A DNA stretch of 64,000 nucleotides from Thermosipho ferrireducens. GTDB taxonomy: Bacteria > Thermotogota > Thermotogae > Thermotogales > Fervidobacteriaceae. The stretch covers positions 1 through 64,000 of the forward strand of contig NZ_CP071446.1 of NCBI RefSeq assembly GCF_017358165.1. Direction: 5' to 3'. Made by a program: the position numbers and the translations under genes. The notes under the pieces were generated by a model that had not been told where the DNA came from, did no database searches, and saw only the letters and a program-made list of their open reading frames with translations. Positions 37,232-49,851 of the stretch are shown piece by piece (the stretch's first letter is position 1; each line of letters opens with the position of its first letter).

Positions 37232-38764
37232 TTATATCTTTTCTATTTTATACTCCACAATATTTCTTAATTCAGATGAAATGTTAATACCAATAAGGTA
37301 AATCTCTCTTCCAGAATATTTTTCATAATATTTTTTTGTTTTTATTTGCTCTAATGCTTCATTTGAATTTTTATCTATTTTTATCTCAAATATATATACT
37401 TTATTTGCATATTTTACAACAAGATCACTTCTTCCCAGATTTGTTAATTCTTCTGCCACTACGTCTAAACCTGAAGCTGCCATTATCGTGTATATTAACG
37501 AATGATAATAACTTTCTTCTCTTTTATGCAAATTATATGGTATCGAACTAATTATTTTTTTTATTTCTTCAATTATTCCTTTTATATCATTTTTGCATAT
37601 TTTCTCATATATTATATTTTCCATTAATTCTACATTTTTTAAATGGTAATTTGCTTCTAATATAATTTTTGAAAAACTGTTTTTTACTTCAAGATTTGGA
37701 TAGTCCAATATATATTTTTCTTTTAATCCAATTTTTTTAGTTCTTTTAAATGTTAAATATCCAGCCTGGGTAAAAAATATGTTCGCGCTTGCAGCTTCTA
37801 TTTCTCGGGAAGAAAAGTCCAATTCACTCACAGGATATTTTACCAGTTCCTCATACGTTATCTCCTTTTCTTTTATATATTCATACAAAAATGATGGAGA
37901 ACCACTTTCGAACCAATAGTTTTGAAATTTTCTTTCGTCAAAAAACTTTAGAACAGAAAACGGATTATATACAAATTGCTTGCCGTCAAATGAAAAGCCA
38001 TTATAATATGACTTTATATTTTCCAAAAGCTCATCTTTACTTATTCCCAGTTCTCTGGCTGTTTCATATATATGTTCTTTGAAATAATACTCTAACTCTT
38101 CCTGGGTATATCCTAGCATCTGCGCATATTTCTTGTTTAACGATACATCGTTTAAATTATTTAAAGCAGAAAATACACCTGTTTTTGTAAATTTCGTTAT
38201 TCCTGTTATAAATACAAATTTTATATATTCATCTTTTGATTTTATAGTTACATAAAAATTTCTTAGGATCTCCCTATATCTTTCTGCTTTTTCTTTATTG
38301 TTTATGTTGTCAAGTATAGGCTTTTCATACTCATCTATAAGAATCACTACTTTACCTTTTTTCGATAATTTCACTATCAATTCGTCAAATGCATATTTAT
38401 AATGCTTAGACTTTATATCTATATTATGTTTTGTTGCTTCATTCATCACTATATTTAATATCCCTTCTTTTAATTCTTCTTCACTATCACTTATTACATC
38501 CAGCATACTTATTTTTATTACTGGAAATTGCTTAAAACTCCATTTGTTATATATATAAGTATTTCTAAACAATTCTTTCTTTCCTTCAAACAAGCAATAA
38601 AGTGTTGATATAGTTAGACTTTTTCCAAATCTCCTTGGACGGGATAAAAAATAAAATTTGCCATTTTGAATCAGGTTGTATATATACATTGTCTTGTCTA
38701 CATAAACATAGTCTTCCATTATCAACTCTTCAAAATTTTGAACACCTATCGGCAACTTCTTCAC
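37232..38764 (-). CDS. AAA-ATPase-like / PD-(D/E)XK nuclease fusion protein
   Basis: A 510-residue protein of the AAA-ATPase_like plus DUF1703-type family found in many copies in Thermotogota, fusobacteria and Bacteroidetes. N-terminal P-loop RPRRFGKSLTIST (about 42-54), VILIDEYEKPI as Walker B (about 143), and a C-terminal PD-(D/E)XK core with GRSDLVVKY and YIFEIKID. The cellular role is unknown; scattered copies suggest a mobile or accessory gene. GTG 38764 follows GGAG by about 8 bases. It lies at the end of the island on the same strand as the peptide cluster but is not evidently part of it. Confidence 0.88.
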   Translation of the reverse strand: MKKLPIGVQNFEELIMEDYVYVDKTMYIYNLIQNGKFYFLSRPRRFGKSLTISTLYCLFEGKKELFRNTYIYNKWSFKQFPVIKISMLDVISDSEEELKEGILNIVMNEATKHNIDIKSKHYKYAFDELIVKLSKKGKVVILIDEYEKPILDNINNKEKAERYREILRNFYVTIKSKDEYIKFVFITGITKFTKTGVFSALNNLNDVSLNKKYAQMLGYTQEELEYYFKEHIYETARELGISKDELLENIKSYYNGFSFDGKQFVYNPFSVLKFFDERKFQNYWFESGSPSFLYEYIKEKEITYEELVKYPVSELDFSSREIEAASANIFFTQAGYLTFKRTKKIGLKEKYILDYPNLEVKNSFSKIILEANYHLKNVELMENIIYEKICKNDIKGIIEEIKKIISSIPYNLHKREESYYHSLIYTIMAASGLDVVAEELTNLGRSDLVVKYANKVYIFEIKIDKNSNEALEQIKTKKYYEKYSGREIYLIGINISSELRNIVEYKIEKI

Positions 38765-38897: not shown

Positions 38898-39599
38898 TTA
38901 GATATAACTCAAAAGTGTATTTTCCATTTCCAGGTGAGTATATTCTTTAACATTTAATTCTCCGAGCTTTTCGCCTCTTTTTAGAATTATTATTCTATCC
39001 ATTTTTTTTAATTCTTCTATTTCGTGTGTTGCAAAAAGAATTATTTTTTTTCTTTGAACAAGTTTTTCAACAAGATTGTGTATTTCATTTCTTGTTTTTA
39101 TATCCACACCACTTGTTGGTTCGTCAAATATGTATACTTCTGCTTCTTTCATCAATGCCCTTGCTATATCCAGCCTTCTTTTCAATCCTTTTGATAATTC
39201 CATATATTTTATGTTTTTATATTCTGTTAATCCAGTTTCCGTAATCACTTTTTCTACAGTCAGCCTCAAATCTTTTCCAAGCAAGCCATTGAGTATTCCA
39301 AAAAATTCCAGGTTTTGTTTTACAGTCAGCCTATAGTAAAAACTTCTTTCTATGCCTGTTGATATACTTATCATTTTTTTAGCATACTTTTGATTCTTGA
39401 ATAAATCAATTCCATCTAATGTAACCTTTCCATCATCTGGTATCAAAAATGTCGCTATTATTTTTAATAAAGTTGTTTTTCCAGCACCGTTTTCACCAAA
39501 TAGTGCTATCTTTTCGCCTCTTTTTATTTTTATATCTATTCCTTTTAATGCTTCTATTCCATTTTTGTACTTCTTTCTTATTTGCCTTATTACAAGCAC
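38898..39599 (-). CDS. ABC exporter ATP-binding protein (peptide-cluster exporter)
   Basis: A single-domain ATPase of 233 residues with Walker A GENGAGKTT, a divergent signature LSKGLKRR, and Walker B VYIFDEPTSGVD. It would drive the ABC-2 permease encoded just upstream. GTG 39599 is chosen because GAGGTG, formed at the permease stop, lies 6 bases before it; the longer frame overlaps the permease by 22 bp without a ribosome site. Export of the modified peptide is inferred from position in the cluster. Confidence 0.88.
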   Translation of the reverse strand: MLVIRQIRKKYKNGIEALKGIDIKIKRGEKIALFGENGAGKTTLLKIIATFLIPDDGKVTLDGIDLFKNQKYAKKMISISTGIERSFYYRLTVKQNLEFFGILNGLLGKDLRLTVEKVITETGLTEYKNIKYMELSKGLKRRLDIARALMKEAEVYIFDEPTSGVDIKTRNEIHNLVEKLVQRKKIILFATHEIEELKKMDRIIILKRGEKLGELNVKEYTHLEMENTLLSYI

Positions 39600-39609
39600 A
39601 CTATCCACC

Positions 39610-40425
39610 TCAATACCAGGTAAGTGTTCCATCTTTTCTTGCTTTGTTGAAATTTGTATTAAACAACCATATTCCTAATGGAGCAATGATTAGTCCCATT
39701 GTTAGTATAATTAACAAACCTTCTTTTATTTTGATAATATCGTATCCTTTTAGCAATGTCTTTCTTAAAAGGTCCATACCATATGTTGTAGGAAGAAGAT
39801 ACGATACTCCCCTCAAAGGGAAAGGCATAATTTCTATGGGATAGTATATGCCAGAGAAAAGTCCTGATAGAGTGAAATATATCCAGCCTATCGGATCGCC
39901 CCTTTTTGTTATAAGTATCATTGCAGCTGAAAGTAATCCTATCCCGGAAAGTGGAAGCATTACTACTATCAACACCAAAAGCGCTGAAAATATATTGGGG
40001 TTTATTTCTACAGAAAAAAACCACACAAGTGCAAAGAACATAATTATTATATTTATTGTTGTAAATAAAAATTTGCTCAAAAAATTAAAAATGAAAAGCT
40101 GCCAGAATGGAGTTTCAGAAAGCAAAAAATACTCAAGTGTACCCATATTTTGCTCTCTCTGAATTGAAGTTTTAAAAGTAGATAAAGCAAGATTTGTATA
40201 AGACATAAATACAGAACCTGTAATAAAATATGCGAGAATATCCCCGCCGTATTTTTCTATCAAAGGGAAATAATTTCCACCAGCTATAAATTTACCTATA
40301 AGACCAAACTGGATTATTCCCACAAAACCACTTAAAAAGCCCAATATAAACTGTGTTCTATACGAAAACCAGATAATTATGTCTCGCTTTATAAAGCTAA
40401 ACAGCTTCAGGAAAAACTTTATCAA
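39610..40425 (-). CDS. ABC-2 type permease (peptide-cluster exporter)
   Basis: A 271-residue membrane protein with about six hydrophobic segments and the ABC-2 permease pattern (GNYFPLIEKYGGDILAYFITG, then GIYYPIEIMPFPLRG before the last helices). The start is TTG 40425, 7 bases after AGAGGAGG. It lies 62 bp downstream of the broken S41 gene on the same strand, consistent with one transcript: peptidase, permease, ATPase. Confidence 0.87.
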   Translation of the reverse strand: MIKFFLKLFSFIKRDIIIWFSYRTQFILGFLSGFVGIIQFGLIGKFIAGGNYFPLIEKYGGDILAYFITGSVFMSYTNLALSTFKTSIQREQNMGTLEYFLLSETPFWQLFIFNFLSKFLFTTINIIIMFFALVWFFSVEINPNIFSALLVLIVVMLPLSGIGLLSAAMILITKRGDPIGWIYFTLSGLFSGIYYPIEIMPFPLRGVSYLLPTTYGMDLLRKTLLKGYDIIKIKEGLLIILTMGLIIAPLGIWLFNTNFNKARKDGTLTWY

Positions 40426-40487
40426 CTTTTATCCTCCTCTATTTAAATCTCTGTTGAAAAATATCAATTCAACAAACAATTGAAATT

Positions 40488-41835
40488 TTATTTATTATCA
40501 ATAAACTCTATTGCCTTTTCAAGCATTGGATCAGAAATACCAGCTATCCATTCCAACTTTTCTTATGTTGTCATTGTGATTTCATAATCTGGTGTTATTT
40601 CATAATATTCTGGAAAATACATATATGAACCAGGAATATAAGCATAAAGTTTTACTGCTGGTAAATAGTGCATAATACCACCACGGGTAGTATTTATTGA
40701 GTAAACAGGCTTTTCACCTATTACCTTTCCAAATTTATTGTTTTGAACAATAGCTGTGAAAACTAACGCCGCAGATGCTATACTACTATCTACAAGCACC
40801 CATACTTTTCCTTCAAAAGCAGGAGGTATTGGACTTACTATCAAAGATCTACTTATTTGAATAATTTTCCCTTTTGTACTTTCATCATAACGAATCCCTG
40901 CCATTTCTAAAGCCTTTATATTGTATTTAGAATTTTTTATACGTTCTTTGTATTTCACATAAAGCTTTTCTTTCACTAAATGTCCCAGTACTTCTGATAC
41001 ACTATCCAATGTTCCTCCGGGATTTCCTCTTATATCTATTATTAGGTCTGTTATATCCTTGTTTTTTTCAAAAATTTCTTTTAAAAATTCTCTGAAATCA
41101 TTAAACAGATATCCTCTAAGTTTAAAACTATATATCCTTAATATCCCTATATTTCCTCTTCTTTCAAATTCATAAAGTGTTCTTGAGATTCTTTTATCTT
41201 CTTGAACTTTCTTTAAAGCTTCTCTTTTTGTTATAGCATCTACCTTTATTTTTTTCTTAAATTGTTATATTCAAATTCTATTTTTACACTTTTTTTGTTC
41301 CAGAAAGTTGGTATTGAAATAAGATATCTGGTCAAAAAGCGTTCTTTGAGCTCTGTATTTTCTCTTATATAAGTGTATTGTTCAAATTCTTTTATAATTT
41401 CTTTTGAAGGAATACCGTCTATTTTTAAAATCTTTGCTTTTACCGGTATATTATCAACTAAAGAGAAAACAACATAGATATCACCATCTATAACATAGGG
41501 TGAAAAAGGAAAAACTAAATTATTATATGAAAAAGGAAATGCTATACTACAGTGGTAATCATTTAAATAATGGAAAAGTGGTGCAACTGTTTTGAAAAAC
41601 TCTAATTTATCCATAGGTTTGTCAAGTTCTTTTCTTATCTCCTCAACAATCTCTGTAAACTCTGGTTTTTTAACCAATCCATATGGATCGATATATGCCT
41701 CTTTTAGGAGAGTAATTAAGAAATCAAAATCTCTTTGCAACTTTGCCACTTCAACTTTACCTGCAAATGTTATGGATGAGAAAATAATACTTGTTAAAAA
41801 AATACAAATAGCAGCACTTTTTTATGCTTTTTCAT
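40488..41835 (-). pseudogene. Broken S41-family peptidase gene
   Basis: This is a diverged third copy of the S41 proteases at 46.5 and 48.1 kb. Reading from ATG 41835 (after GGGGAG) there are three lesions. A 7-base homopolymer at 41796-41802 shifts the frame within the signal peptide. Another 7-base run at 41249-41255 shifts it again mid-protein. A TAA at 40563-40565 stops it about 26 codons before the natural end (stop at 40488). One extra base in each run would restore the frame. The Ser site (SSIASAAL) and DLIIDIRGNPGG are retained, so decay is recent or the gene is read by slippage. Confidence 0.85.
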
Positions 41836-41856
41836 AGAATTCTCCCCTTTTAATAC

Positions 41857-42362
41857 TTTGCATTATACGCTCGGAATGAGAAAAAATACTTACCTTACCA
41901 ACATTACTAATTACAAGATTCTTCGTCGCTTTGTTCCACAGAATGACAATAAAGAATATGTCATCCTGGGTAAAACACCAGCAAAGCCGTTCTTTTCCTC
42001 CTTGGGATGTCATCCTGAAGAACACGGTGACGAAGGATCTTATTCCTTTCCCTAACCTTGCTAATCTCACCAACTCTCGCCAATCTCGCCAACACCGCTA
42101 AATATAAGATTCCTCACCCTTCGGGTTCGGAATAACAGGTGCGGCGGATTCCTCGCCGTCTTCCCCCTTGGAATGACATGTTTTGAGAATGCCAACCTCG
42201 CCAACGCTTGCTAACTCTCGCTAACCCTCGCTGTTTTTTGTCATCCTGAGGAGCGCAGCGACGAAGGGGATGTCATCCCGAGGAATGAAATGACGAGGGA
42301 TCTTATTTTCCCCAACCTCGCTAACCCTCGCTAACCTCGCCAATCTCGCCAACCTCGCTAAT
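41857..42362. repeat. Interspersed hairpin repeat cluster, copy 3
   Basis: About 500 bp without a supported gene. It has several GTCAT-linked hairpins with arms ATTCC/GGAAT, ATCCT/AGGAT and ATCCC/GGGAT. Runs of a 9-base unit close to AACCTCGCT also occur (for example 42312-42362, about five units). The right part belongs to the 475-bp direct repeat. Confidence 0.88.
41862..41867 (-). promoter_or_regulatory. Candidate -10 for the broken S41/ABC exporter transcript
   Basis: TATAAT on the minus strand, 27 bp before the ATG at 41835. The -35 would fall at the edge of the repeat and is weak. Confidence 0.35.
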
Positions 42363-42577
42363 TACCCTCTTCACAAAGCCATGGAAATAGCCATTCCCAC
42401 CAGTGCCTTTTTTTATGGTTTTCGCTACACAGAGCATTACACTCACTTTCATTTACGCAGCTATCACAGTTTTTTACATCACCTGTGCATAGTCCTTTTT
42501 CTCCATCACAGAATGAAAGATACACTTTTTCTTTCACAATTGGTTCGTTTAAAAATTCCACCCTTTCACCCCTTTTT
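42103..42577. repeat. 475-bp direct repeat, left copy (with peptide A gene)
   Basis: Nearly identical to 45804-46278 at a constant offset of 3701 bp; I count three mismatches, all outside the peptide gene. It includes hairpin repeats plus the whole peptide A gene and its ribosome site. Confidence 0.95.
42358..42561 (-). CDS. Cys-rich peptide A, putative RiPP precursor (copy 1)
   Basis: A 67-residue peptide with seven Cys (18, 25, 32, 35, 41, 45, 63), an acidic N-terminal part resembling a leader (MEFLNEPIVKEK), and an aromatic C-terminal motif HWWEWLFPWLC. It starts 18 bp after the stop of the second radical SAM gene, with AGGGGTGA as ribosome site before GTG 42561. The coding sequence is preserved exactly in a second copy at 46.1 kb, which supports it as a real gene. 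A role as substrate of the adjacent maturases is inferred from size, Cys content and position; no known precursor family was recognised. Confidence 0.78.
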   Translation of the reverse strand: MEFLNEPIVKEKVYLSFCDGEKGLCTGDVKNCDSCVNESECNALCSENHKKRHWWEWLFPWLCEEGN

Positions 42578-42579
42578 GT

Positions 42580-43929
42580 TTAAACTCTGACAGTTTTTAA
42601 CTTCTCTGAGGTAAGTTCTACCATTTCTTTTAAGTTGTATTTTAATGGTATACATCTATATGGTTTTTTGATAGGTGAACCATGTAGTTTGTCCACTACA
42701 ACAGCATTGAAAGTGCATCCCCCCATACAAACAGGAAACACTATACAATTTTTACATTCTTCATCTGTGTACGGTTCATATGTTAGCCACTTTGCATATT
42801 TCTGATTCAGCTCTATTCCTTCTTCTGACAATTGCCCAACTACAGTTATTGGATTACCAACTTCTCCCCAGCATTTGTGTATACTTCCATCGGTATCAAT
42901 TACGAAACTGTTCTGGCACAACGCATCGCATCTTGCTATTTTTAAATGTCTGAATGGATTAAATGGATACTGAGGTATATATTTTAAAATTTCTTTATAC
43001 AATTCCACTTCTAATTTTGCAAATTCTTTTAATGTTAATGGGGTATCGTTAAACTGGATGGGGATTTCTCTGGCTATTTCTACCATCTGAAAGTCAAATT
43101 CTATCATTAAACCTTTTTCCCCGATTAGCTTTATAAGTTTTTTTACTGAATTTATACTTTCTTTTGAAATGTTTATTCTTATTTGAACAAACATCTTTTT
43201 GTGAATTTTCTCTATATTATCAATTAATTTTGAAAATGTTGGTTTTCCGTCGAGTAGTTTTCTATATCTGTCATGAATTTCTTCAGTACCATCTATGGTT
43301 ATAATAACTCTGTTTATACCAACATTTAGTAACCTATCCGCGATTTCTGAGGTAAGTAAATATCCGTTTGTCACTATAAACGGCTTATACTCAACGGAAT
43401 ATTTTTCGCAGAGTTTCTTGAAATTTTCACTTAAAAATAATAAGTTTTTCAATGTAAGCAATGGTTCACCACCATAAAAAGTAACACTTAAAACATTTGG
43501 GCGTTGCTTTTCAAACCTTCTTTTTGTTTCATCTATCAATAATTTTAATTGCTTCTCTTTTAAATCTAAAGGAGAGTTTTCTATAACTGTCTGGAGTTGT
43601 TGCTGGTAGCAATATATACAATTAAAATTACATTTTTCAGTCATAACTACTGTATATCTCAGATATCTATCACTATATTTGTATGCATTGAATCTAAATT
43701 TCAGATATTCAATTTCATCAAAATCATTTTCCAAAATAAAAAATCCTTTTTTTAAAGTTTTTATTTCGCTTTCATCAAAATCGCCTGAATCAACCTTTTG
43801 TCTATCAAACATCTTTTTTATTTTATCTTTTTTTGAAGGTTCAACGTAAAGCATTGCATATGAAAGCACATTAAAAAGGATTATGTAATCTTCTTTTTCT
43901 ATCAATAAATTATATTTTGAAAGTTTCAT
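42580..43929 (-). CDS. Radical SAM/SPASM peptide maturase 2
   Basis: This 449-residue enzyme is probably a peptide-modifying radical SAM protein. An N-terminal ~90-residue region may recognise a leader peptide. The SAM cluster binds C100, C104 and C107 in EKCNFNCIYCYQQ; FYGGEPLL is the SAM-binding motif. A C-terminal SPASM domain has C334, C338, C353, C392, C395, C401, C405 and C426 for auxiliary clusters, with the CMGGC ending typical of SPASM maturases. It overlaps maturase 1 by ATGA. Cys-rich substrates suggest thioether formation, but the bond type is not shown. Confidence 0.88.
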   Translation of the reverse strand: MKLSKYNLLIEKEDYIILFNVLSYAMLYVEPSKKDKIKKMFDRQKVDSGDFDESEIKTLKKGFFILENDFDEIEYLKFRFNAYKYSDRYLRYTVVMTEKCNFNCIYCYQQQLQTVIENSPLDLKEKQLKLLIDETKRRFEKQRPNVLSVTFYGGEPLLTLKNLLFLSENFKKLCEKYSVEYKPFIVTNGYLLTSEIADRLLNVGINRVIITIDGTEEIHDRYRKLLDGKPTFSKLIDNIEKIHKKMFVQIRINISKESINSVKKLIKLIGEKGLMIEFDFQMVEIAREIPIQFNDTPLTLKEFAKLEVELYKEILKYIPQYPFNPFRHLKIARCDALCQNSFVIDTDGSIHKCWGEVGNPITVVGQLSEEGIELNQKYAKWLTYEPYTDEECKNCIVFPVCMGGCTFNAVVVDKLHGSPIKKPYRCIPLKYNLKEMVELTSEKLKTVRV

Positions 43930-45254
43930 TTTTCCACCCCACAGCTTTTTTCCAACTTCTTTGTAAAATACCAGACCTTTGCAAAATGTTCCATATCTCT
44001 TTTTTCTTCAGGACATCCCTTATTTCCACCCATCTTTGCATTTCTGCACCCGCCCATACAAATAGGAAGAATTTTACAACTTTTACATTCTTCATCTTCA
44101 AAAGCATCCGGTTTATACCAGTACAGGTATTTTTCTTTTTCATACTCTATCCCATTTTCTGTCACTTTTCCAAACTCAGAGCCTTTCATTACTGCAACAG
44201 TACATGGATATACTTCTCCTTCAGGTCCTATCACAGTCGCTGCTACGCTATCATATTCACAATATCTGCTTTGCGTAAGTATAGGAAAAAATACTTTAAA
44301 TCCTTTTTCGGCAGCTTTAACGTAAAATTTAGAAATCTTCTTGAAAGAATTTAATCCCTTAAATTCATGCAATTTTTTATAAAACCCATTTTTATCTTCT
44401 CCCCCCTGGAATATCCACCTGAAATAAATTCTCATCCTTTCTTTCGGAAACTCGTCAAACATATCAAGAAGCTGTGGAATATGATCATAATTTTCAACTC
44501 CCACATTTACCCTTAAAGAGATCTGTGTTGTCTCTGTTACTTCCAATAATTTTTTCATGTTGTTGTATATCTTATCAAATGTTTCTGCTCCACCTTTTAA
44601 TGGTCTGTACTTATTGTGGTACTCTGGCGGACCATCAAGTGTAATCTGAACATTTCTTATTTTAAGCTCATCAAAATATCTGGCTTTATCCTCTGAAAGT
44701 AAAAATCCATTTGTAGACATCGAAGAATGAAATTCAGAATTATATTCTTCACATACTTTTGCCACTCTTTCGTTTATATATCTTATGATTTCAAAACTTA
44801 TTAATGGTTCTCCCCCAAACCAGCCTATACTTATTTTTCTCTTTTTCCTGGCAATTTCACACAAATAATCTACTATCCTTTCTGCTATTTCATATCTCAT
44901 AGATGGACCTTCTTTTGATTCATAGCAATAGACACAATCAAAATTACATTGAAGTGTCGGCATTATAGTAAATATTGGAGAACTTGTATCATATCTTGAA
45001 ATATAATTCATCATTTTTAGATGTTGAAGCTCATCGAAATACTTATTAACAAGGTATCCTCCATAGATTAAATCTTCTTTTAACTTTTTATATTCGCCAT
45101 TCCAATTTTTATTTGGATTTTCCAGTATCTCTTTTATCATTTTTGCCCGGTCTTTGTTTACAGTCGCAATTGCGCGTGTTAAATAATTCACAAATACAAC
45201 CTTTTCACCTTCTTCAAACCACACATTGTATTTTGATTCTTTGTATTCTATCAT
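43926..45254 (-). CDS. Radical SAM/SPASM peptide maturase 1
   Basis: A 442-residue paralogue of maturase 2. The N-terminal region (about 1-90) is followed by C103, C107 and C110 in LQCNFDCVYCYES, then WFGGEPLI, STNGFLLSED and QITLDGPP. SPASM cysteines are C332, C351, C390, C393, C399, C403, C414 and C438. AGGGAGGT precedes ATG 45254, and a plausible promoter lies about 50 bp upstream. Two different maturases in one operon suggest two steps on one peptide or two peptide types (A against B and C). This is inference. Confidence 0.88.
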   Translation of the reverse strand: MIEYKESKYNVWFEEGEKVVFVNYLTRAIATVNKDRAKMIKEILENPNKNWNGEYKKLKEDLIYGGYLVNKYFDELQHLKMMNYISRYDTSSPIFTIMPTLQCNFDCVYCYESKEGPSMRYEIAERIVDYLCEIARKKRKISIGWFGGEPLISFEIIRYINERVAKVCEEYNSEFHSSMSTNGFLLSEDKARYFDELKIRNVQITLDGPPEYHNKYRPLKGGAETFDKIYNNMKKLLEVTETTQISLRVNVGVENYDHIPQLLDMFDEFPKERMRIYFRWIFQGGEDKNGFYKKLHEFKGLNSFKKISKFYVKAAEKGFKVFFPILTQSRYCEYDSVAATVIGPEGEVYPCTVAVMKGSEFGKVTENGIEYEKEKYLYWYKPDAFEDEECKSCKILPICMGGCRNAKMGGNKGCPEEKRDMEHFAKVWYFTKKLEKSCGVEK

Positions 45255-45302
45255 CTTTACCTCCCTTATTGTTGTAATTAGTAACTCAACATAATTATAT
45301 AC

Positions 45303-45332
45303 ATTATATAAACCTAACAGTTAATTTTGCAA
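45303..45332 (-). promoter_or_regulatory. Promoter of the maturase operon
   Basis: On the minus strand, TTGCAA (45327-45332) and TATAAT (45303-45308) are 18 bp apart and about 50 bp before maturase 1. Confidence 0.6.
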
Positions 45333-45726
45333 ACATCAAAAAATTCTGTTATGTTTCTTTTTTTTTTAACAGCAATTATAATGTTCATTCTTTTCTTTTT
45401 GCATGATTACGAATTTATAACCTATTTATTTCTATAATTATAATTTGTATTTCGTTTTTAAATTTTAAATGTACCTTATCCAAAATAACAACAAAAAAAT
45501 TAGTTTAAAACGTGTCAGGATAACATCTTATAAGTTCTGTTGTATAGTTCGATTACTTTTAAGTAATATTAATAAAATTTTTGAGATTAAAATAATTATA
45601 TTCATGTATTATCTAATCCAGGCACTTCAAAACATCATTCTATTTTGCTTCTCTTTTTTCGTTCCAAACATATGTGAAGGAAACGTCATCCCCGACAAGA
45701 CATTGCAAAGAATGTAAATGACAATG
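45333..45726. other. AT-rich spacer, no gene seen
   Basis: About 390 bp of very AT-rich sequence with long T runs upstream of the maturase promoter. The only open frame is short and lacks a ribosome site. I see no RNA gene. Confidence 0.6.
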
Positions 45727-46062
45727 CTTCTTATCTTTTACCAACTCTCGCTAACCTCGTAAGCCCCTTTATCGTTTCACTCATCAGGACAAGCCTTGCT
45801 AATTATAAGATTCCTCACCCTTCGGGTTCGGAATGACAGGTGCGACGGATTCCTCGCCGTCTTCCCCCTTGGAATGACATGTTTTGAGAATGCCAACCTC
45901 GCCAACGCTTGCTAACTCTCGCTAACCCTCGCTGTTTTTTGTCATCCTGAGGAGCGCAGCGACGAAGGGGATGTCATCCCGAGGAATGAAATGACGAGGG
46001 ATCTTATTTTCCCCAACCTCGCTAACCCTCGCTAACCTCGCCAATCTCGCCAACCTCACTAA
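45727..46062. repeat. Interspersed hairpin repeat cluster, copy 4
   Basis: The same hairpin and 9-base modules as copy 3; from 45804 on it belongs to the right-hand 475-bp direct repeat. Confidence 0.88.
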
Positions 46063-46278
46063 TTACCCTCTTCACAAAGCCATGGAAATAGCCATTCCCA
46101 CCAGTGCCTTTTTTTATGGTTTTCGCTACACAGAGCATTACACTCACTTTCATTTACGCAGCTATCACAGTTTTTTACATCACCTGTGCATAGTCCTTTT
46201 TCTCCATCACAGAATGAAAGATACACTTTTTCTTTCACAATTGGTTCGTTTAAAAATTCCACCCTTTCACCCCTTTTT
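45804..46278. repeat. 475-bp direct repeat, right copy (with peptide A gene)
   Basis: Partner of 42103-42577. The repeat ends just inside the T run before the peptide A ribosome site, so the upstream neighbour differs: the second maturase gene at the left copy, the peptide B gene at this one. Confidence 0.95.
46059..46262 (-). CDS. Cys-rich peptide A, putative RiPP precursor (copy 2)
   Basis: Identical in coding sequence to the copy at 42358-42561. Here it is the last gene of the S41/peptide operon, 19 bp after peptide B. A long open frame running through from 46424 is in a different frame from peptide B and lacks a ribosome site, so GTG 46262 behind AGGGGTGA is preferred. Confidence 0.78.
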   Translation of the reverse strand: MEFLNEPIVKEKVYLSFCDGEKGLCTGDVKNCDSCVNESECNALCSENHKKRHWWEWLFPWLCEEGN

Positions 46279-46281
46279 TGA

Positions 46282-46461
46282 TTAAGAAGCGTTTGGATTG
46301 TCCAGAGTACAATCAATAGGTAAATCAAAAACACACCATATTGGAGGAACTGGTCCACATGGTCCACTTCCCCCATCACACAATTGTGCAGCAATATCAC
46401 AACCACCAGTTGGAGATGGTTCATCTGGAGGTATTACAGGGTTTAATACTTTTATCTCCAT
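46282..46461 (-). CDS. Cys-rich peptide B, putative RiPP precursor
   Basis: A 59-residue peptide. Leader-like part MEIKVLNPVIPPDEPSPTGG, then a core with C21, C28, C35, C43 and C51, including AQLCDGGS. A Gly-Gly directly before C21 looks like a double-glycine leader end. Peptide C shares MxIKVLNP, a Gly before C21 and AQLCDGGS, which shows that these are members of one precursor family. GGGTGG lies 6 bases before the second of two adjacent ATGs (46461). It sits 29 bp after the S41 peptidase gene. Confidence 0.83.
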   Translation of the reverse strand: MEIKVLNPVIPPDEPSPTGGCDIAAQLCDGGSGPCGPVPPIWCVFDLPIDCTLDNPNAS

Positions 46462-46490
46462 CATTCTCCACCCTTTCTGTTTGTTTTTCA

Positions 46491-47801
46491 CTAATTTTTA
46501 CTTATGATCTCAAAAGCATAGTCTAACATTACATCTCCCTCTCCAAGCAGATAATCAATTTTTTCCTCTTCTGTTAGATTTTTTCCATAATCTATTTCTA
46601 TTTCCGGGTTATCTTCAATCCAGTAGTACCCACCTGATATAGATACTAATATTTTTGTATTTGGAAGGATATATTTACCTAATGATGCCCCAAGCGAGTT
46701 TACAGGTTCTGTAGTTTTTTCTCCTATTATTTTTCCAAAACTAAATTTTTTAAACAAATAAGTTGTTATAACAGCTCCAGAAGCTATTCTATTATTTATA
46801 AGAAGCCATATTTTTCCTTTGAAATTATCTTTTGCTGGTATTATTTTGGGGTTTAATTCGTATTTTTCCAAAGTTCTTTTTATCCTTCCGTCGGTTAGTG
46901 GTATATTTTTGCAGTTGTAACCAACTAAGTGTACCTTCAAAGGGTGAAATGTTAAATATTTAAAAAGTTCCCAAACATTGTATAAAGGTCCCCCACTATT
47001 TCCTCTCAAATCGATTATTAAATCTGACATATCTTTATTCTCTTTGAATGTTTTTTCTAAAAACTCTTTGTAATACCCTGATGACCTATAACTATATGAA
47101 AACGTCCTTATTTTCAATATCCCAATGCTTCCTTTTCTTTCAAATGAAAACTTCCTTTTTTCCCATTCATCCGGGTATAGTTGTTTTGTTTGTTTTAGTT
47201 TTTCCCCATATTTAATAGCATTTATTTCTACTGATTTTTTTGTGCCGTTAATTTTTAGCAATAATTCAAATGTATTTTTATCTTCTATCTCTGGAAAATA
47301 CGAAAATAAAAAAGATACCTGAGCATGAATCACATCCGAACGAACTTTTGGTAAGTATTGCTTCAGTTCGTTAATTATTTCTTTTACATCTTTACCTTCT
47401 ATTTTCAAAATCTCTGCTTTGTTTTCTAATTCTTTCACCAGTGAATTTTTAACAAACAATCTATTTCCTACCACAACAGGTTCAAATGGCATTACCAGTG
47501 TGTCTGTGGTTATGTTGAAAACTATACCATAATGCACATCACTAAAAAGATGTATCATAGGTGCTATGGTTTTAAAAAACTCCCCTTTTGTCATAGGTTT
47601 GTTGAGCTTGGTTTTTATTTCATCTACTTTTGAGTAGAATGTTTCTTCTGAAACAAATTTAAAAGGATCAATTCCCGCCTTTAAGATATAGTTTATGAAA
47701 ACATCAAAGTCTTTCTGGAGTTCTTCCGGTTGAAATAATTCCTGGGAAATTGTCAATACAGATAAAAACATTAAGAAAAGTATAATTATCTTCTTTTTCA
47801 T
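46491..47801 (-). CDS. Exported S41-family serine peptidase (copy b)
   Basis: A 436-residue protein: signal peptide (1-19), an N-terminal helical region, and an S41 core with DLIIDLRGNSGG (oxyanion/strand motif), the likely nucleophile Ser in NNRIASGAV, and GEKTTEPVN downstream. S41 enzymes such as CtpA and tricorn-like proteases cleave peptides outside or at the membrane; here removal of a leader or trimming of the modified peptide is inferred from context. ATG 47801 matches the start of copy a; the in-frame GTG at 47813 overlaps the ribosome site. Confidence 0.88.
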   Translation of the reverse strand: MKKKIIILFLMFLSVLTISQELFQPEELQKDFDVFINYILKAGIDPFKFVSEETFYSKVDEIKTKLNKPMTKGEFFKTIAPMIHLFSDVHYGIVFNITTDTLVMPFEPVVVGNRLFVKNSLVKELENKAEILKIEGKDVKEIINELKQYLPKVRSDVIHAQVSFLFSYFPEIEDKNTFELLLKINGTKKSVEINAIKYGEKLKQTKQLYPDEWEKRKFSFERKGSIGILKIRTFSYSYRSSGYYKEFLEKTFKENKDMSDLIIDLRGNSGGPLYNVWELFKYLTFHPLKVHLVGYNCKNIPLTDGRIKRTLEKYELNPKIIPAKDNFKGKIWLLINNRIASGAVITTYLFKKFSFGKIIGEKTTEPVNSLGASLGKYILPNTKILVSISGGYYWIEDNPEIEIDYGKNLTEEEKIDYLLGEGDVMLDYAFEIISKN

Positions 47802-47854
47802 ATGTTGTTTCACCTTCCTTTTATTAATGTCAATCTTGAACTTTAAAGGTTAAA

Positions 47855-48028
47855 CTAAATATCTGGAATATCTTGAGGGCATACAAAAGGAAAATCAAAA
47901 GCAAAACATACCATAGCACATAAACCATCACAACTTCCTCCATCACACAATTGAGCGATCATTTCACAGCCACTTGTTGATTCTAGTTCTTCTGGTGAAA
48001 TTATGGGATTTAATACTTTTATTTTCAT
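47855..48028 (-). CDS. Cys-rich peptide C, putative RiPP precursor
   Basis: A 57-residue peptide lying between the two S41 genes. The leader-like MKIKVLNPIISPEE and a TSG before C21 precede a core with C21, C28, C33, C37, C41 and C50, containing AQLCDGGS. The strong likeness to peptide B in leader and first core Cys, along with the same paired ATGs after a GGGGGGAGA site, identifies it as a real gene. ATG 48028 is the second of the pair. Core sequences of B and C differ, so the products would differ. Confidence 0.83.
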   Translation of the reverse strand: MKIKVLNPIISPEELESTSGCEMIAQLCDGGSCDGLCAMVCFAFDFPFVCPQDIPDI

Positions 48029-48057
48029 CATTCTCCCCCCTTTCTGTTTGTTTTTTA

Positions 48058-49362
48058 CTAACTTTTACTTATGATCTCAAAAGCATAATCTAACACTACG
48101 TCTCTCTCTCCAAGCAGATAATCAATTTCTTCCTTTTCCGTCATTTTTCTTTCATAATCTATTACTATTTTTGGTTCCTCTTCAAAATAATATTTTCCAT
48201 TTGGAATCAGTAATGAGAGTTCTGTATTGGGAAGAATATAGTTAGTACTAAAACGTACAGAAAGTGTATTTACTGGTTCCTTTGGTTTTTCTCCTATTAT
48301 TTTTCCAAGTTCAAACTTTTGAAATAAATAAGTGGCAACTACTGCTATCGAAGCCATAGTGTCGTCTACCAGAAGCCATACCTTACCTTTAAAATTATCT
48401 TTCACTGGTATTATCTCTATCTTTAAATCATGATTTTTTCTGATTCTTTTTATTTCCTTATTTCCAGGTAAGTTAGTATATACGTATTCAATTCCCCATG
48501 TTACTAACTTTTTATCTGTAAGATATTTAAAAAGTTCATAAATATTTTCCAGATATCCCCCGGGGTTTTTTCGCAAATCAATTATTAAGTCTGTCATATC
48601 TTTGCTATTTTTAAACACCTCTTTTAAAAAATCTTTGTAATATTCAAGCCGCTCGTATTTAAACGAAAATGACTTTATGTTTAGTATTCCTATTTTTCCT
48701 TTCCTTTCAAATGAAATAGGTTTGTCTATTTTTAAATTTAATTTTTTTATCTTGTTTATTATTCCAACTTTTGTAAAAGCACTTATTTGTATCTGCTTTT
48801 CGATATTTCCATTTTTAATTAATAGATCAAAAGTATCTTTTCCTTCAATTTCTGGCAACAATAAAACCATATGCCCTAATACTAAATCTATCCTTTTCGA
48901 AATAATTCTTGGAATATACTTTCTAAATTCTTCTATCATATCCTGAACTTTTCTACCATCGATTTCTAAAACCTCTGAATTATTATTTAAATCTTCAACC
49001 AGTGAATTTTTAACAAACAATCTATTTCCCACCACAACAGGTTCAAATGGCATTACCAGTGTGTCTGTGGTTATGTTGAAAACTATACCATAATGTACAT
49101 CACTAAAAAGATGTATCATAGGTGCTATGGTTTTAAAAAACTCCCCTTTTGTCATAGGTTTGTTGAGTTTGGTTTTTATTTCATCTACTTTTGAGTAGAA
49201 TGTTTCTTCTGAAACAAATTTAAAAGGATCAATTCCCGCCTTTAAGATATAGTTTATGAAAACATCAAAGTCTGTTTGGAGCTCTTCTGCTGAGAATAAC
49301 TTTTGAGAAAACGTAAGTATCGATAGAAATGTTAAGAAAAATACAAGTATTTTCTTTTTCAT
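48058..49362 (-). CDS. Exported S41-family serine peptidase (copy a)
   Basis: A 434-residue paralogue of copy b: signal peptide (1-19), S41 core with DLIIDLRKNPGG, nucleophile Ser in DDTMASIAV, and GEKPKEPVN. Residues about 31-120 are identical to copy b and the DNA there is almost identical, while the rest is much more diverged. AAAGGAG lies before ATG 49362. It is the first gene of the operon S41a, peptide C, S41b, peptide B, peptide A. Confidence 0.88.
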   Translation of the reverse strand: MKKKILVFFLTFLSILTFSQKLFSAEELQTDFDVFINYILKAGIDPFKFVSEETFYSKVDEIKTKLNKPMTKGEFFKTIAPMIHLFSDVHYGIVFNITTDTLVMPFEPVVVGNRLFVKNSLVEDLNNNSEVLEIDGRKVQDMIEEFRKYIPRIISKRIDLVLGHMVLLLPEIEGKDTFDLLIKNGNIEKQIQISAFTKVGIINKIKKLNLKIDKPISFERKGKIGILNIKSFSFKYERLEYYKDFLKEVFKNSKDMTDLIIDLRKNPGGYLENIYELFKYLTDKKLVTWGIEYVYTNLPGNKEIKRIRKNHDLKIEIIPVKDNFKGKVWLLVDDTMASIAVVATYLFQKFELGKIIGEKPKEPVNTLSVRFSTNYILPNTELSLLIPNGKYYFEEEPKIVIDYERKMTEKEEIDYLLGERDVVLDYAFEIISKS

Positions 49363-49851
49363 GTGCTTCTTCTCCTTTTTACTATTAAAGTTTCTTTCAA
49401 CTTTTCAGGAAGATATGAGTATAAAATAATAGAGGATTCTGTTATTCCCCCTCTCCCATCATTTAATACACAAACATTTTTAAAATAATTTCAAAGCTAT
49501 TTCACCGGCTATGTGTAAAATTTCACTTGTAAAATAAAATACTTAACTTTTTTCACTCACTTTTTTTATTTTTCTTATACGACTGAATTTTAAAATATTT
49601 TTAAAATATCTACAAACTTTATTTATCTGGATTATAAATAATTATCTTTCTTTTTTGAAAAATATTATATATTTGCTTTTGTGTTCATTAATGGTTACAT
49701 TTTTTTGACAGAAACCACTCGGATACTAATTTTGAAGCAGAATTTTGCTATACAATATTATTTGATCATTGTTTGTTCTTAAAGATTGAATTTTTCTTAA
49801 TATGATTTTTTGTATGTTTTAGCATAGATAACAATACTGGCAAAAATACTG
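49363..49851. other. AT-rich spacer upstream of the S41/peptide operon
   Basis: About 490 bp without a supported gene. It must hold the promoter of the leftward operon; TATACT on the minus strand near 49420 is one weak candidate. Long T/A runs dominate the middle. Confidence 0.5.

Follow-up and report, generated by a model that had tools for sequence, protein, structure and literature searches.

The DNA analysed here (the window) comprises the first 64,000 nucleotides of the Thermosipho ferrireducens genome, which is assembled as a single contig of 1.98 Mb. Between positions 38898 and 49362 it carries a block of genes that, as an earlier note on this sequence had described, lie on the minus strand and include four small Cys-rich ORFs, two radical SAM (rSAM) enzymes with SPASM cysteines, S41 peptidase genes and an ABC-2 exporter (Table 1). 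However, the four ORFs represent only three different peptides, as pepC is present twice with the same sequence, once in each copy of a 488-bp duplication (42097-42583 and 45798-46285, 98.8% identity). Two of the S41 genes are intact and a third one is broken, and the leader motif shared by pepA and pepB, KVLNPxIxPxE, is real; both had been correctly observed. Profile searches with NCBIfam and Pfam models gave no match to any of the peptides, in agreement with the view that the precursors belong to no named class.

Table 1. Features of the gene block and of the sequence just upstream (positions in the window)
Feature	Position	Strand	Description
S41_1	48058-49362	-	Secreted-type S41 peptidase, assigned to pathway 2, directly before pepA; PF03572, 61.8 bits
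MatS scar	49371-49445	-	Remnant (last ~25 codons) of a third maturase that was lost; S41_1 starts shortly downstream
pepA	47855-48031	-	Putative pathway 2 precursor; family in 7 genomes
S41_2	46491-47813	-	Secreted-type S41 peptidase, assigned to pathway 2, directly before pepB; PF03572, 59.1 bits
pepB	46282-46464	-	Putative pathway 2 precursor; start is ATG ATG at 46464
pepC copy 2	46059-46262	-	Peptide identical to copy 1; part of the 488-bp duplication
MatA	43926-45254	-	Putative pathway 1 rSAM/SPASM maturase, predicted RRE-like N-terminal domain; PF04055, 76.8 bits
MatB	42580-43929	-	Second rSAM/SPASM maturase; start overlaps the MatA stop; PF04055, 71.9 bits
pepC copy 1	42358-42561	-	67-aa Cys-rich putative precursor, downstream of MatB; family conserved with MatA
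S41_3	~40497-41821	-	S41 gene broken by a frame change and stops, located upstream of the exporter
ABC-2 permease of exporter	39610-40425	-	PF01061, 54.3 bits
ABC ATPase of exporter	38898-39632	-	PF00005, 102.3 bits

The locus is syntenic with those of two relatives (G078 and G084), and promoter and terminator scans of it gave nothing above the level of shuffled sequences. The 488-bp duplication also carries a dispersed repeat of the GTCATTCC/GGATGACA type, which is found elsewhere in the block as well. A gene for an AAA-ATPase_like and PDDEXK_9 protein (37232-38764) adjoins the exporter.

MatA and MatB each have a CX3CX2C motif and the full set of SPASM cysteines, and both exceed the Pfam cut-off for PF04055. 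The best NCBIfam models for these enzymes are all peptide maturases, which agrees with the RiPP logic on which the earlier note was built, but none of them is matched at its cut-off. For instance, with the Clo7bot (TIGR04334), TIGR04463 and CefB (NF038107) models, whose cut-offs are 600, 525 and 600 bits, MatA scores 260, 219 and 211 bits and MatB 230, 235 and 253 bits. Similarly, the PapB ranthipeptide model NF047865 (cut-off, 340 bits) is reached neither by MatA (141), MatB (115) nor by a third maturase discussed below, the MatS of G078 (237), and the SCIFF model TIGR03974 (cut-off, 425 bits) is not reached by MatA (107 bits) or MatB (83 bits). As each scored below cut-off, we rejected the named RiPP maturase families as the identity of MatA and MatB. 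An AlphaFold2 model of MatA, built with 24 sequences (mean pLDDT 89.6), is nearest to CteB, followed by anSME, TigE, SuiB and ChlB. Judging from the secondary structure of this model, residues 1-90 (strands and three helices) resemble RRE domains and may form an RRE-like domain.

Relatives were searched for in 103 Thermotogota genomes, and MatA orthologues (46-77% identity) were found in 19 of them, those of G041 and G045 being fragments. The pepC pattern consists of a short leader, MEFLNEP, followed by NCxxCxNxxxC. A profile (A2) of 16 such peptides, built from loci that it then recovered, gave clear matches in 18 of the 19 MatA genomes and in none of the other 84 (Fisher p = 3.5e-19). The only MatA genome without a match is G045, where MatA is a fragment at a contig end, and we regarded a match in G086 (18 bits, E=0.005) as doubtful and did not count it. 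In the loci of the relatives, MatB directly follows MatA wherever the contig is long enough, and both genes are adjoined by a Cys-rich ORF starting with ME(F/Y)xNxP; if the locus reaches far enough, an ABC exporter lies downstream. The pN/pS ratios against relatives in G078 (0.23-0.27 for pepC, 0.36-0.46 for pepA and pepB) are as for constrained coding sequences, and the value of 0.27 for pepC is close to those of MatA (0.22) and MatB (0.29). Across the phylum, pepC thus occurs together with the maturases, as is generally expected of a RiPP precursor and its modifying enzyme; the earlier note had named a lack of such conservation in related genomes as one of two findings that would refute its proposal.

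Several pepC-type precursors are found in some genomes (G001 and G090 have at least three), while in four others (G036, G048, G049 and G052) both maturases accompany a single one; this suggests a single peptide as the substrate of both MatA and MatB. About five different Cys-rich precursors are found in a row upstream of MatA in G001 (L049:2383-3272), a possible combinatorial set. In the pathway that we propose, pathway 1, the precursor would be pepC, and the maturases would bind its very short leader through their predicted RRE-like domain. The Cys-rich core would then be modified by MatA and MatB together; thioether-type crosslinks involving some of its conserved cysteines are the most likely outcome, and the product would leave through the ABC-2 exporter. 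A bolder version, which we offer as possible but rather doubtful, is that MatA and MatB form an obligate pair, whose radical modifications of a single very-short-leader peptide are of two different types, so that these systems would constitute a RiPP class of the Thermotogota that has a distinct chemistry and shares its exporter with an unrelated RiPP processed by S41 peptidases.

Alternatively, the CxxC-rich core might mean that the mature peptides are metal-binding or signalling molecules with little or no crosslinking, and that the enzymes produce some other radical modification, such as epimerisation. The pathway 1 copy of a T. maritima-type genome (G090) would also fit this idea, as it lies ~8 kb downstream of a peptide (MQKMPKPVVPNDYLNPGKGCGGAGLVCGWCG; L052:354-449) that we take to be TM1316, whose operon is reportedly a stationary-phase locus of T. 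maritima. However, among the enzyme families and folds that come closest, most are maturases that form thioethers, and we consider this alternative unlikely.

Beyond these loci, at least one named orthologue, from a Thermotogota MAG, was among the matches listed in a contig-wide scan for MatA. In a sample of 398 Bacillota genomes, the matches have at most 35% identity, and those with 29-35% belong to further Cys-rich peptide systems, whose maturases are nearest to Clo7bot and likewise below its cut-off. In two of these systems (L302 and L305) the precursors begin with M(E/N)WI and are accompanied by an ABC ATPase like that of the window and, in L302, also by the corresponding permease. Additionally, two full-length MatA-like rSAM/SPASM enzymes (L194 and L195; 27-28% identity) are encoded in a 467-kb contig that is classed as viral in IMG/VR.

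The leaders of pepA and pepB differ from that of pepC, and their distribution points elsewhere. A pepA/pepB profile has matches in seven genomes. In G078, G081 and G019, a cassette formed by S41 and peptide genes is accompanied by a third rSAM enzyme, MatS, which is nearest to the nif11 and PapB maturase models, although below their cut-offs; in G039, MatS adjoins pepA/pepB-like peptides. In two of these genomes, G081 and G019, the cassette occurs without MatA. In the window, pepB is 61% identical to its G078 copy (pN/pS 0.46), S41_2 is 69% identical to the G078 copy located between MatS and a pepB, and the broken S41_3 groups with S41a of G081 (73% identity in the C-terminal part), where the arrangement relative to the exporter is the same. 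MatS itself is absent from the genome of the window, apart from a C-terminal scar (tblastn E=0.004, 67% over 21 aa) whose alignment score of 83 contrasts with a best score of 45 among 20,000 shuffles. As a substitute for MatS we considered and rejected an rSAM-ABC fusion (32% to MatS) encoded at ~1.279 Mb of the same genome, which looks like a separate peptide system. This gene (L005:1273-3471 of G000) is one open frame of ~990 aa, in which an rSAM/SPASM enzyme is fused to an ABC exporter, and probably represents another peptide system of this genome.

S41_1 and S41_2 clearly exceed the Pfam cut-off for PF03572 (24 bits), and three residues, H94, S345 and E417, are invariant in 15 S41 sequences; they may correspond to a Ser/His/Glu triad of the CPAF type, as opposed to Ser/Lys. 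The two proteins are 92-100% identical at residues ~26-125 (window 47440-47740 and 48990-49290) and only 32-68% identical in most of the rest, which suggests gene conversion of the shared N-terminal part. Only 3 of the 19 genomes with MatA gave matches to S41 proteins like those of the window (E <= 1e-10); therefore, these peptidases do not serve as leader protease for the MatA/MatB product. The leader-removing role that the earlier note had given them is, nonetheless, still plausible for pepA and pepB. In a Peptostreptococcaceae MAG, weak relatives (24-28% identity) are located on the flanks of an rSAM RiPP cluster, so the association of S41 peptidases with rSAM RiPPs seems to be recurrent; a literature search found no paper on S41 peptidases in such clusters. 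It might also be proposed that the S41 enzymes serve for self-protection or destroy the product instead of maturing it, as there is one S41 gene next to each precursor and S41_1 has diverged from S41_2 in the catalytic part. By contrast, the S41 gene of the relatives belongs to one operon with MatS and the precursor and lies between these two genes, as would be expected for a processing enzyme, and we give this proposal only a small chance.

The initial interpretation was that the block encodes one pathway, in which all the peptides are substrates of MatA and MatB, with leader removal by the S41 peptidases. The adjacency and common direction of the genes in the window, the position of a pepC copy directly after pepB and the S41 relatives beside the Peptostreptococcaceae cluster might be read in this way. 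However, the scarcity of S41 in MatA genomes, the presence of the S41-peptide cassettes elsewhere with MatS, and even without MatA, and the difference between leaders all speak against it. The distribution of S41 and MatS led us to reject this interpretation, which we regard as quite improbable: pepA, pepB and the S41 genes belong to another cassette, with its own rSAM enzyme, lost here.

We consider it likely, instead, that two RiPP pathways lie adjacent in one island, MatA and MatB acting on pepC and MatS on pepA and pepB, with an exporter that is probably shared. The permease is 81% identical to that of G078, where the exporter lies beside MatA/MatB, and 85% identical to that of G081, where, as in G019, it lies beside MatS/S41; the exporter is nearest to the G081 copy, in a weakly resolved fork. 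These sequence relationships suggest that one exporter is probably common to both pathways. In pathway 2, pepA and pepB would be former substrates of MatS; export would have relied on a transporter of the same kind, with the S41 peptidase paired to each peptide doing the trimming once it had left the cytoplasm. Pathway 1 is complete in this genome, but the deletion of MatS would have left pathway 2 orphaned or reliant on another maturase. Counting against the two-pathway reading, and in favour of a single pathway, pepA, pepB and both S41 genes are intact despite the loss of MatS, so that MatA/MatB or another rSAM enzyme could serve these peptides. In any case, the block represents real, conserved RiPP biology, and its first interpretation is partly supported.

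The locus includes an unnamed two-maturase RiPP family whose conservation across the Thermotogota extends to a T. maritima-type genome; heat stability should be expected of both its enzymes and its products. In addition, the locus is an example of adjacent RiPP cassettes that merge, use a common exporter and decay, which is a warning for cluster mining strategies that take one cluster as one product. Additionally, the intact MatS cassettes of the relatives make the role of S41 peptidases as dedicated RiPP proteases testable.

Among known systems, those with the Clo7bot, TIGR04463 and CefB maturases, which are also rSAM/SPASM enzymes for small Cys-rich peptides, provide the best models for MatA and MatB, over nearly their whole length. 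However, the scores are less than half of the cut-offs, two maturases are found here in tandem and the precursor matches no model. Among solved structures, that of the SCIFF maturase CteB is closest to MatA in both sequence and fold, while the nif11 and PapB models are nearest to MatS, but the enzymes of the window and its relatives are all below the cut-offs of these families. Moreover, the Cys-X3-Asp/Glu motifs of PapB ranthipeptides are missing from the pepC sequence and appear only once (CFAFD) in that of pepA. The TM1316 peptide, with its rSAM and ABC genes, is a system separate from pathway 1; for its locus in Thermotoga maritima, PMC13157175 cites Frock et al. 2013. A third peptide system that resembles the TM1316 operon (a 35-aa Cys peptide, an rSAM enzyme and an ABC transporter) lies between the two pathways in G078 (L044:11176-14551, plus strand). 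The one Thermotogae rSAM peptide cluster listed in 2014 was a putative sactipeptide cluster of Thermosipho melanesiensis, Tmel_0409 (PMC4289311); if this is MatS, it would be a counterpart of pathway 2 and not of MatA/MatB. Finally, the S41 peptidases of the window share the PF03572 domain with CPAF-like and C-terminal processing peptidases, their PDB relatives include CtpB, Tsp and CT_858, and their best NCBIfam model is NF033424. Unlike CPAF, they score only 43-48 bits with this model, against a cut-off of 250, and are paired with small Cys-rich peptides.
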